DNA of 64,000 bases, from assembly GCF_038246755.1 (NCBI RefSeq), contig NZ_CP134706.1, forward strand, positions 2,480,001 to 2,544,000, given 5' to 3'. Positions 14,814 through 18,106 of this stretch are shown in pieces. The position numbers and the translations under genes were made by a program. The notes beneath the pieces were generated by a model. That model did no database searches. It was not told where the DNA came from and saw only the letters and a program-made list of their open reading frames with translations. Position 1 is the first letter of the stretch. Each line of letters begins with the position of its first letter. This stretch comes from Micromonospora sp. FIMYZ51. Lineage in GTDB: Bacteria > Actinomycetota > Actinomycetes > Mycobacteriales > Micromonosporaceae.

Positions 14814-15314
14814 ATGGCGGGTTTCGGTGAGCCGGGCACGGCCCCGGTCGACGCGGCCGGGATGACCGTGGGTGTGGTCGCGGCGCGCTGGCACGGCGAG
14901 CTGACCGACCACATGCTGGATCGGGCGGTGGCCGCCGCGCAGGCGTGCGGCGCGCGGACCGTGGTGGCCCGGGTGGCCGGTTCGGTCGAGCTGCCCGTGG
15001 TGGCGCAGGCCCTGGCCCGCCGCTGCGACGTGGTGGTCGCGCTCGGCGTGGTGATCCGTGGCGCGACCGCGCACTTCGACTACGTCTGCCGCTCGGTCAC
15101 CGACGGCCTGACCCGCATCGCCCTCGACGAGGGCAAACCGGTGGCCCACGGGGTGCTCACCGTCGACACCATCGAGCAGGCGCGCGACCGTGCCGGCCTG
15201 CCCGACTCCAGCGAGGACAAGGGCTGGGCCGCCACCGTCGCCGCCCTGGACGCCGCCCTGGCCATCCGGCAGGTCGCCACCTCCGCCAACCAGCGTGTGG
15301 GCTTCGGCGCCTGA
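14814..15314 (+). CDS. ribH: 6,7-dimethyl-8-ribityllumazine synthase
   Basis: Condenses the ribitylaminopyrimidine with dihydroxybutanone phosphate, and normally forms hollow icosahedral or pentameric assemblies. The 166-residue protein has the substrate-binding motifs GSVELPVVA, GVVIRGATAHFDYVC (with the catalytic His) and GVLTVDTIEQARDRAG. It is the last gene of the riboflavin operon, with its ATG 3 bases after the ribBA stop. The following genes are on the opposite strand and of different base composition, so the operon ends here, although no clear hairpin terminator is visible. Confidence 0.96.
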   Translation: MAGFGEPGTAPVDAAGMTVGVVAARWHGELTDHMLDRAVAAAQACGARTVVARVAGSVELPVVAQALARRCDVVVALGVVIRGATAHFDYVCRSVTDGLTRIALDEGKPVAHGVLTVDTIEQARDRAGLPDSSEDKGWAATVAALDAALAIRQVATSANQRVGFGA

Positions 15315-15363
15315 CGCGGCCTCGGCTAGGACGTAGGTGGAGGGGTGGTGGTCGAGGCTGTCG

Positions 15364-16014
15364 CTACAGTTCTTTGATCTTGTCGAGGAAGGCGGCCCAA
15401 CTGTCGCTGCGGGCGAACCAGGGCGGCGCGAGCTGCCCCAGTTCCACGATCTTCTCCGCGATGGCGGCGCTGTCTGCCTCCGTGTATGTCTGGAATGACG
15501 GCCGTGCCCCCACAGGGGTGACCGGCTTCTTGAGTTCTTCCTTGGCGTTGCGAATCTTGCCGATGTCGCGTCCGGCGAACTGGTCCGGCCTACGCCAAGT
15601 CGGCCGGACTGCTGCGACGGCATCAGGGAACAGGAACCACCATGTCTCCATCTCCCAGGCCGGCACGACGGCGAGCACTGGCCACCGTAGCGATCGGTAG
15701 CTGTTCTCGATCTTTGTGATCAGGGCCTCGTGCGCCGGTTCCACCTCGTCGGCGTCCTCGTGCATGAGTACCGCGCGGATGCGGGTCGTCACGTCAACGG
15801 CGCGCAGAAGGGCACCAACTTTGGTCGCTTGAGTCGGTAGCCGCTGTGGCGGTATGTTGCGGACCAACGCCATGGGCTTGCGGAGCGGTTTCAACGCTCC
15901 ACGAGGGATGTCTGGACGCAGCGCGGCAACCAGCGTCTGGATAGCTTTCCGGTCATTGTCGTCTTCGCCGAGGATCACCACGATTGGGCGTTGCTCTCCG
16001 CGTCTGCCCGTCAT
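15364..16014 (-). CDS. TOPRIM-like (DUF4276/RloB-type) partner of the AAA ATPase
   Basis: A 216-residue protein not confidently assigned to a named family. It shows the layout of a TOPRIM nuclease-like fold: a hydrophobic strand ending in the acidic residue of VVILGEDDND (Glu17), then VLMHEDADE (Asp87-x-Asp89) after a second strand, then VVPAWEMETWW (Glu121/Glu123), as in DUF4276/RloB-like proteins. ATG 16014 is chosen because it overlaps the ATPase stop (ATGA) and a GGAGG lies 9 bases upstream; TTG 16023 would add three residues. Base composition is clearly lower in GC than in neighbouring genes. In OLD-like, PARIS-like and related phage-defence systems an AAA ATPase controls a TOPRIM effector; that role here is inference. 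Confidence 0.6.
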   Translation of the reverse strand: MTGRRGEQRPIVVILGEDDNDRKAIQTLVAALRPDIPRGALKPLRKPMALVRNIPPQRLPTQATKVGALLRAVDVTTRIRAVLMHEDADEVEPAHEALITKIENSYRSLRWPVLAVVPAWEMETWWFLFPDAVAAVRPTWRRPDQFAGRDIGKIRNAKEELKKPVTPVGARPSFQTYTEADSAAIAEKIVELGQLAPPWFARSDSWAAFLDKIKEL

Positions 16015-17239
16015 TCCGGGCAACCTCCAAGGGCACCGGAGAACCAGAGTTCGCCCAGCCCGAGTTCGCCGTGAAGCTCCCGCTCCATTGCCTTGACGGT
16101 CGCTGGGGCGATAGCGGGTATCCGGGACGCTGCGTCTTCACCTCGTTCGCACACGATGAGTTCGTCAGGCGTGAGTCGGTTCACCAGGGCGGGGGAATGG
16201 GTGGCGATGAGAAATTGGGTGCGGCCAGACGCCTCCCGCAACAGCTCGACGAGCCGGTCGAGAATGTGCGGATGCAGGCCATGGTCGATCTCTTCGATGC
16301 AGGTCAACCGGGGTGGAGACGGATCGTAGAGGAGCGCGAGGAGCGCGAGCGCGCGGATCGAGCCGTACGACGCCTCCTGCAACGTGGTCGCCCCGACCAA
16401 GCCCTGTTCGACAAGCGTCAGTACAGTGCCCTCGCCGGCCCCGCCGATTGCGGTGAACTCCAGACGTTCCAGACCGGGGATGAACCGGCGCGCGTCGCGC
16501 TGTAACGCGTCGAACCGGTCGGCGTGCGAGTGGGCGAGTGGGCGAGGAACGCGAGAAACGCGGCGAGGTTGCTGCCGTCATTGCGCAGGCGTTCGCTTGT
16601 CGGCTCGTGCGAGGGCCGGCGTGCGGCGGGCACGTCTACGTCGAATACCCGGAAGCTGGCGAAAAGGTTCGCCAGCGCTTCGACCTGCTCGCCCCCGTCC
16701 TCGGGGCTCAGCTTCGGCAGGGTCGACAGGCCGAGGGAGCCTTCCCGCAAGCTTGCGGTGTCCTGCCCGCCCTCTGGCTTGTGGAAGGTGATCTGTCCGC
16801 CCTTGACGGTGATCCGACGGCCCGGGCCGGCGGTCCTCTTGAAGGCGAAGCTCTCCGCCCGACTCAGGAAATACCGCTCCTTCTCACTGCGCCCTGAACT
16901 CATCCTGCGTGAGGAGAACTCCAAGGTGTAGGTGTCGGTGGCACTTGGCGAGCTGTTCCTCGTCACGGCGGCCTCGACCTCGATGCTGACCGGCGTCCTG
17001 GCGCCCTTGGTCCCCCGGAACGCCACCCGGTCGAAGCCTGCGCGACGATCGAGCGCCGGGGCGAGGTCATCGCGGGTGGCGTCACCCAGAAACGCGATCA
17101 CGTCGAGAAAGTTGGATTTGCCCGCGCCGTTGGGGCCGACGAGAACGTTCACGGCATTGAGATGCACCTCGACATCGCGCAGACTCCGGTAGTTGAGAAC
17201 CTTCAACCGGAGCAGATACGGGGGACGTCGGACAGCCAC
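16011..17239 (-). pseudogene. AAA_21/OLD-type ATPase interrupted by an 8-bp tandem duplication
   Basis: The 5' part reads LRLKVLNYRSLRDVEV then Walker A GPNGAGKS (residues 35-42), typical of RecF/OLD-like AAA_21 ATPases. The 3' part, in another frame, carries the signature helix (LQEASYGSIRALALL), Walker B LTCIEEIDHGLHP and the switch FLIATHSPALVNRL. The frames separate at 16526-16546, where the octamer GCGAGTGG is repeated 2.6 times. Removing one octamer restores a single 406-residue ORF (1229 - 8 = 1221 bases = 407 codons), with continuous sequence AHSHADRFDALQRDARRF. As given, the product stops early at residue ~273, in a garbled tail beginning near residue 233. GTG 17239 has a -10 box (TACGCT) 6 bases upstream and no ribosome-binding site. 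It could be a mutant, a phase switch, or a sequencing error. Confidence 0.8.
16526..16546. repeat. 8-bp tandem repeat (2.6 copies) causing the ATPase frameshift
   Basis: The octamer GCGAGTGG occurs at 16526-16533 and 16534-16541 and continues as GCGAG at 16542-16546. One extra copy accounts exactly for the loss of frame in the ATPase gene. Such repeats expand or contract by slipped-strand replication. Confidence 0.9.
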
Positions 17240-17245
17240 GGCCGA

Positions 17246-17251
17246 AGCGTA
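17246..17251 (-). promoter_or_regulatory. -10 element of a leaderless ATPase/TOPRIM transcript
   Basis: On the minus strand TACGCT is followed by 6 bases and the GTG of the ATPase gene. No Shine-Dalgarno sequence is visible. The spacing equals that of rpe and two other genes in this window, so a leaderless transcript is likely. Confidence 0.45.
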
Positions 17252-17359
17252 CCTGGTTGATCAGCCTCGGGAAGTGCGGCGCGCGACCCCCGGAAGCATC
17301 CTCAGCCTCGGGTTCCGCATCGGCCTGCCTTGATCTGGTTCTGGCTCGGCAGCCGCCGG

Positions 17360-18106
17360 TCAGAGGCGGCCGGCTTCGAGGAGGCGGGATAGGAATTGGC
17401 GGGTGCGGGGGTGGGTGGGGGTGCTGAAGAGGTGGGCTGGGGGAGCGGATTCGATTACCTGGCCGGCGTCCAGGAAGTAGATCTGGTCGGCGACGTCGCG
17501 GGCGAAGCTCATCTCGTGGGTGGCCAGGAGCATCGTCATGCCGTCGTCCTTGAGGTCGCGGATCATGGTGAGGACCTCGCCGACCAGTTCCGGGTCCAGC
17601 GCCGAGGTGACCTCGTCGAGCAGCAGCAGGCGGGGGGAGTTCGCCAGCGCCCGGACGATCGCCACCCGCTGCTGCTGGCCGCCGGAGAGCCGGTCCGGGT
17701 AGGCGTCCGCCTTCGCGGCCAACCCGACCCGGTCGAGCAGTTCCCGGGCCTGCGCCTCGGCCTCGGCCTTGGCGCGTCGGTGCACCCGGCGCGGGGCGAG
17801 GGTGATGTTGTCCAGCACGCTCAGATGCGGGAAGAGGTTGTACGACTGGAAGACCATCCCGATCCGGCGGCGTACCGTGTCGGGGTCGACGCCGGGCGCG
17901 GAGATCTCCTCGCCGTCCAGCTCGATCGTCCCGTCGTGCAGTTCCTCAAGCAGGTTGACGCAACGCAGCAGGGTCGACTTGCCGGAGCCGGAGGCCCCGA
18001 TCAGCGCCACCACCTGGTGTTCGGCCACGGTCAGGTCGAGTGAGTCGAGGACGACCTGACCGCCGAACTGCTTGCGCAGCCCGCGACAACGCAGCACCGC
18101 GTCCAT
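17360..18106 (-). CDS. Polar amino acid ABC transporter, ATP-binding subunit
   Basis: Cytoplasmic ATPase subunit (248 residues) of a PAAT-type importer. Walker A GASGSGKST, Q-loop VFQSYNLFPHLSVLDN, signature LSGGQQQRVAIVRAL, Walker B LLLLDEVTSALDPE and the switch ATHEMSFARDVAD are all intact, closely following the GlnQ/HisP pattern. The ATG is 2 bases downstream of the permease stop on the same strand, so binding protein, permease and ATPase form one operon transcribed leftward. The ligand is an amino acid or a related polar compound and cannot be narrowed from the ATPase. Confidence 0.95.
   Translation of the reverse strand: MDAVLRCRGLRKQFGGQVVLDSLDLTVAEHQVVALIGASGSGKSTLLRCVNLLEELHDGTIELDGEEISAPGVDPDTVRRRIGMVFQSYNLFPHLSVLDNITLAPRRVHRRAKAEAEAQARELLDRVGLAAKADAYPDRLSGGQQQRVAIVRALANSPRLLLLDEVTSALDPELVGEVLTMIRDLKDDGMTMLLATHEMSFARDVADQIYFLDAGQVIESAPPAHLFSTPTHPRTRQFLSRLLEAGRL

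Follow-up and report, generated by a model that had tools for sequence, protein, structure and literature searches.

A probably acquired HEC-01-type gene pair with its ATPase gene split by an eight-nucleotide duplication in Micromonospora sp. FIMYZ51

We analysed a stretch of 64,000 nucleotides (nt) of Micromonospora sp. FIMYZ51 (contig NZ_CP134706.1, positions 2,480,001 to 2,544,000), hereafter called the window. On its minus strand, in the gap between ribH and an ABC transporter operon, lie two overlapping genes, an ATPase gene followed by that of a smaller partner protein. We consider it likely that the pair is a horizontally acquired HEC-01 module whose ATPase was broken by an 8-nt duplication; the intact form would be an ATPase-gated nuclease, and this copy would be idle. 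Judged by sequence, the pair is an HEC-01 module (Hma-embedded candidate 1; HEC-01A and HEC-01B in PADLOC-DB) and not OLD, PARIS or Gabija proper. This type of module is already known and the find is hence modest. An unannotated broken gene pair is now tied to a candidate defence family, the HEC-01 partner protein gains a testable active site, with intact relatives named for testing, and a further example is provided of a defence module gained and then lost.

The ATPase gene and its break

The PADLOC model HEC-01A (PDLC04183) matched the ATPase gene in two pieces lying in different frames, one before the break (3.2e-65, 219 bits, profile positions 5-233) and one after it (1.3e-71, 240 bits, profile positions 233-400), which abut at profile position 233. 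With Pfam, AAA_15 was found in piece 1 (38.6 bits, cut-off 32.1) and AAA_21 in piece 2 (87.4 bits, cut-off 27). Two congeners, G147 and G153, carry uninterrupted ATPase homologues of 406 amino acids (aa) together with the same overlapping partner gene, and the homologue of G147 matched HEC-01A at 4.4e-143. From GTG to TGA, the gene measures 1229 nt in the window versus 1221 nt in these congeners, and a three-way alignment placed 8 extra nt at the break, the rest of the coding length being unchanged. This indicates a single gain of 8 nt. An earlier reading made without database searches (the sequence-only reading) had described an ATPase in two frames, an octamer of 2.6 copies at the break and one surplus copy as the origin of the frameshift; the repeat scan and the abutting pieces bear out the first two points, and the length comparison with the two relatives the third. 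The break parts Walker A, in piece 1, from the signature, Walker B and H-loop, in piece 2, so that the uninterrupted ATPase frame needed for a working HEC-01 module is missing. In the following list, the motif names are those that we take these segments to represent, on the basis of sequence and conservation.

16011-17239, minus strand: HEC-01A-type ABC ATPase gene, GTG start, broken into two frames (PADLOC HEC-01A; intact homologues in G147 and G153)
16526-16546, minus strand: 8-nt tandem duplication, 2.6 copies, frame-shifting (repeat scan; not present in G147 and G153)
16418-17239, minus strand: reading frame open from the GTG, 273 aa, homologous as far as about residue 234 and ending in an out-of-frame tail before the stop
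17114-17137, minus strand: presumed Walker A, GPNGAGKS, piece 1
16353-16373, minus strand: presumed ABC signature-like element, ASYGSIR, piece 2
16284-16307, minus strand: presumed Walker B, LTCIEEID, piece 2
16191-16202, minus strand: presumed H-loop, THSP, piece 2

A search of the window's genome gave no second HEC-01A copy besides two weak ATPase matches, and a 52-nt nucleotide match was not recovered with the protein query. Another tandem repeat is present in the ATPase gene at 16329-16349 (9 nt, 2.3 copies), with a period that keeps the frame.

The partner protein

The model HEC-01B (PDLC04207) matched the partner (8.5e-35, 118 bits) and scored higher on the partner of another genome, G068 (254 bits). 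We regard the partner as a putative Toprim-like nuclease because of its predicted fold and conserved residues, and not because of profile searches. When its AlphaFold2 model (predicted local distance difference test score 94.1) was compared with 1000 re-aligned chains, OLD chains ranked 1, 2 and 5 and a PARIS chain ranked 3. Residues E17, D21, D87, D89, E121, E123 and K158 are conserved in a comparison of 121 rows, made up of the window's protein plus 120 of the 124 partner matches (among them P0001, the window's own record). The Glu17 and Asp87-x-Asp89 noticed earlier, as well as the ATGA overlap of the two genes, are therefore present as described and conserved. Equated by order and spacing rather than by superposition, E17-D21/D87-D89/E121-E123/K158 parallel E400-E404/D455-D457/T506-E508/K562 of OLD (PMC6755086), and the Toprim E, the DxD and the second-metal residues thus have counterparts in the partner. 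However, the partner has ExE where OLD has TxE, and its counterpart of OLD E404 is an Asp, as in RNase M5 (D31; PMC6755086).

By profile searches, the outcome for Toprim was negative. Neither Pfam nor NCBIfam gave a significant family or a Toprim match for the partner, and hhalign of the partner alignment A1 against one GajA, that of G153, returned nothing. Alignment A1 holds 58 rows (the window's protein, 56 among the 120 best of 124 partner matches, and one G068 protein), whereas the ATPase alignment A2, which aligned with the same GajA in the P-loop region only, holds 29 (two congener ATPases and 27 among the 120 best of 1355 ATPase matches). Alignment A1 had no match to PDB sequences up to an E-value of 10. 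Among its 58 members, DUF4276 was a weak match in 8 (best E-value 0.0021), DUF4192 was matched in 3 (best 0.001) and RloB in 1 (0.088); DUF4435 was not among the 20 families matched at E-value ≤1. The sequence-only reading had made its defence inference depend on Toprim similarity in profile searches, which did not appear; of the families that it proposed to search, AAA_21 was recovered (piece 2) and DUF4435 was not, with DUF4276 and RloB at the levels just given.

Relation to known systems

As in HEC-01, both genes lie on the same strand and are directly adjacent; unlike HEC-01, the present copy has a frameshifted ATPase and is solitary between housekeeping genes. Septu/retron PtuA ATPases were the best Foldseek matches of a relative's ATPase model (E-values down to 5e-14), but PtuA acts with an HNH nuclease, whereas a Toprim-like protein is found here. 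An AAA_15/AAA_21 ATPase is shared with PARIS (AriA/AriB), but DUF4435 (AriB), which serves as the PARIS criterion in PMC9122126, is missing among the 58 members at the threshold above, and the partner has 216 aa versus 306 aa in the matched PARIS chain. A split Class 4 is discussed for PARIS in PMC10568477. In contrast to Class 2 OLD (BpOLD, XccOLD; GajA), the ATPase and the Toprim-like domain are here separate genes with no adjoining UvrD helicase. Gabija is set apart by its UvrD-type GajB, which is absent from the neighbourhood, the neighbours being ribH and the ABC transporter. The proposal of an OLD-, PARIS- or Gabija-like defence pair thus holds for an acquired defence-type ATPase with a Toprim-like companion, but not for the proper family, which is HEC-01. 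The HEC systems reportedly originate in a 2024 preprint by Payne et al. Some of them are antiviral, and HEC-04 is an ATPase-Toprim fusion (PMC12988326, PMC12111858); the portions of the HEC literature consulted contained no anti-phage test of HEC-01 itself.

Acquisition of the module

The inserted stretch and its neighbours are as follows.

15315-17359, no strand assigned: inserted stretch from ribH to the ABC ATPase gene, not at this site in the compared congeners
14814-15314: ribH (lumazine synthase), left neighbour (Pfam scan)
17360-18106: ATPase gene of the ABC operon, right neighbour

Of 24 congener loci, which extend at most about 1.5 kb beyond ribH, 7 have the ABC gene 8-150 nt from ribH, and a match inside the module is absent from all 24. 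The presence or absence check proposed earlier therefore gives empty sites. The GC content of the module is 65.3% versus 72.4% for the window, at the 3rd percentile among 1876-bp windows, as the sequence-only reading had noted in general terms. A nearby substrate-binding gene, at 68.0%, is almost as low and speaks against an acquisition drawn from composition, which therefore counts for little; the empty sites of the relatives are the stronger argument. The low GC content travels with the module, since it is 65.0% in G147 and 65.4% in G153. A search for repeats at the insert ends gave nothing convincing. The flank of the insert at 17301-17329 (29 nt) matches positions 7011879-7011907 of the genome at 90%.

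In two congeners this junction is occupied by different inserts: an acyl-CoA oxidase-like gene with a 217-aa open reading frame without Pfam match (G159:C7:89800-94200, L105), and an HD-domain gene with other open reading frames (G012:C1:2134400-2139300, L106). The ribH/ABC site thus seems to be permissive.

Distribution and damage of related copies

A partner match at E-value ≤0.001 was found in 6 of 160 genomes of the genus. These are the genome of the window itself, two with close matches (87% and 83%), one with a distant match (31%) and two whose matches are both short and doubtful. In the bacterial family, the ATPase was present at E-value ≤1e-40 in 17 of 354 genomes (18 loci), and 3 of the 18 loci are clearly damaged. 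Besides the window (G000), these are G324 and G352. G324 (L094) lacks the ATPase end and the partner; both are retained in G325 (L095) and G321 (L099), whose surroundings match its own on the partner's side. In G352, the sequence between ATPase residue 390 and partner residue 101 is deleted, and the frame changes near residue 92. The shorter ATPase of G355, with no partner in the stretch covered, may represent another family.

At all 30 loci of the genome_contigs set, metagenome-assembled genomes included (L043 being G147, from Micromonospora thermarum, and L054 and L055 two copies in one genome), the partner is directly preceded by an ATPase match in the same orientation. This match is partial in L052, which has no match to the first 163 residues, and in L065, and lies in two frames in L057, whose contig is as long as that of G352 (991282); L057 and L065 are damaged, and the partner of L072 is partial or divergent. 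Plasmid and phage records gave no match, and three loci on viral contigs contain both genes. The viral contig L102 and a contig of Sphingomonas sp. Leaf242 (L066) share an identical ATPase match (43.67%, residues 9-398), so that the pair may lie there in a provirus.

The surroundings differ among the three close copies (window, G147 and G153). Defence neighbours were found at G153 (GajA/GajB) and G068 (DrmMI/type IIG gene). Among 20 further flanking genes at ten loci, two neighbours being chosen per locus from the list of open reading frames, 6 at 5 loci matched PADLOC at E-value ≤1e-10 and 14 did not. The matches are HEC-06/Orf5 at G320, DruE-like and PDC-S14 at L044, PDC-M11B at G147 and PDC-S14 at G352; the transporter-type model matched at L046 could be incidental.

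Nature and age of the lesion

Three exact tandem repeats with a period of 4-15 and at least 20 nt are present in the window, one with period 8. Fifteen first-order Markov controls had a mean of 0.33 such repeats each and none had an octamer repeat of 21 nt. The repeat at 16526-16546 is real, and exact period-8 repeats of its length are rare. Comparison with G147 and G153, respectively, gave ratios of nonsynonymous to synonymous substitution rates (dN/dS) of 0.09 and 0.075 for piece 1, 0.03 and 0.03 for piece 2, and 0.09 and 0.10 for the partner, values that are rough at a dS of 0.67-1.34. No further stop or indel was found in the module genes relative to these congeners. Low dN/dS on both sides of the break and the lack of a second stop or indel suggest that the lesion is probably young. 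The number of private amino-acid changes before the break, 19 in the window versus 4 and 6 in the other two sequences, points the other way; the private silent changes of the same three sequences are 36, 20 and 39.

That both genes otherwise appear intact and constrained would also be expected if the duplication were a sequencing or assembly error in a working module. We find this unlikely, as the assembly is a single contig with a listed completeness of 99.99% and an exact 8-nt tandem duplication is atypical of a homopolymer error; a real lesion is moreover unsurprising, because the copies of G324 and G352 are damaged as well. Phase-variable restriction systems are known, and a tandem repeat with a period not divisible by three, placed exactly at the break, could recall a reversible switch toggling the ATPase within a population by expansion and contraction of the octamer. 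Such a switch is highly improbable, since the repeat is short and neither G147 nor G153 has it at this position; there is thus no sign of selection for it. The suggestion of a gene inactivated or phase-variable by slippage is thus retained for the inactivation, as sequenced, but not for an evolved switch. The lesion is probably a young, spontaneous slippage event.

Proposed function

Because the pair belongs to HEC-01, the module in this soil actinomycete is probably anti-phage. Inferring from the families, the intact module would follow the scheme of PARIS and of other OLD systems, whether split or fused. The ATPase would keep the Toprim-like nuclease inactive and activate it on sensing infection; the nuclease, using two metals, would then cleave nucleic acid and stop phage growth. 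The present copy is probably silent, because the duplication broke its ATPase gene. Ribosomes would meet a stop in the ATPase and leave it some 400 nt short of the partner start, and fragments parting Walker A from the signature and Walker B would not form a working sensor. In PARIS, AriA keeps AriB inactive until a phage protein triggers the release and dimerization of AriB. Deletion of either PARIS gene is non-toxic and abolishes defence (PMC9122126), a precedent for the view of the sequence-only reading that an effector made without its ATPase must be harmless. By this analogy, the lone partner, should its own ribosome-binding site allow its synthesis, would probably stay idle.

A role outside defence, with the ATPase and nuclease serving as accessories in the repair of DNA or RNA, seems very unlikely in view of the patchy distribution (17 of 354 family genomes), the differing surroundings of the three close copies, the tolerance of damaged copies, and the HEC-01 identity and defence neighbours. 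More tentatively, and at slightly worse than even chances, HEC-01 may be a further split form of OLD, in which a SMC/Rad50-like ABC ATPase controls a separate minimal Toprim two-metal nuclease. With an Asp at the E404 position, its active site would resemble that of RNase M5 and AriB more than that of Class 2 OLD, and the target may for this reason be structured RNA. The actinobacterial copies would be expressed from a leaderless promoter of their own, spread as solitary inserts of two genes and be repeatedly silenced once resident.

Expression signals

The partner gene and the signals at the two gene starts are listed below.

17246-17251, minus strand: candidate leaderless-type -10 element, TACGCT, 6 nt 5' of the GTG (pattern match; layout common to close actinobacterial relatives)
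16023-16028, minus strand: Shine-Dalgarno-like GGAGGT, 8 nt 5' of the partner ATG, within the ATPase coding end
16011-16014, minus strand: ATGA, ATPase stop overlapping the partner start (kept in G147 and G153)
15364-16014, minus strand: HEC-01B-type Toprim-like putative nuclease, 216 aa, intact (PADLOC HEC-01B; AlphaFold2 model; conserved residues)

Leaderless promoters are usual in actinobacteria, and the TACGCT hexamer would fit such a promoter carried by the module. A survey of ATPase matches starting within the first 12 residues, leaving out partial ones such as L052 and L065, gave 46 rows, counting duplicates; 24 of them have a TANNNT hexamer 5-8 nt before a start and 22 do not, as a raw pattern count without a background rate. 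All retained rows with an ATPase at least about 61% identical to that of G147 have the hexamer. A sigma-70 promoter scan found none, and terminator-like matches numbered 2 observed versus 1.5 expected. At the partner start, the Shine-Dalgarno-like GGAGGT is replaced by GGAGGC in G147 and GGGGGC in G153; in the window, the early stop halts ATPase translation about 400 nt 5' of the partner start, and GGAGGT remains there. Upstream of the rib genes lies a flavin mononucleotide riboswitch (RF00050, 10791-10964, 71.6 bits).
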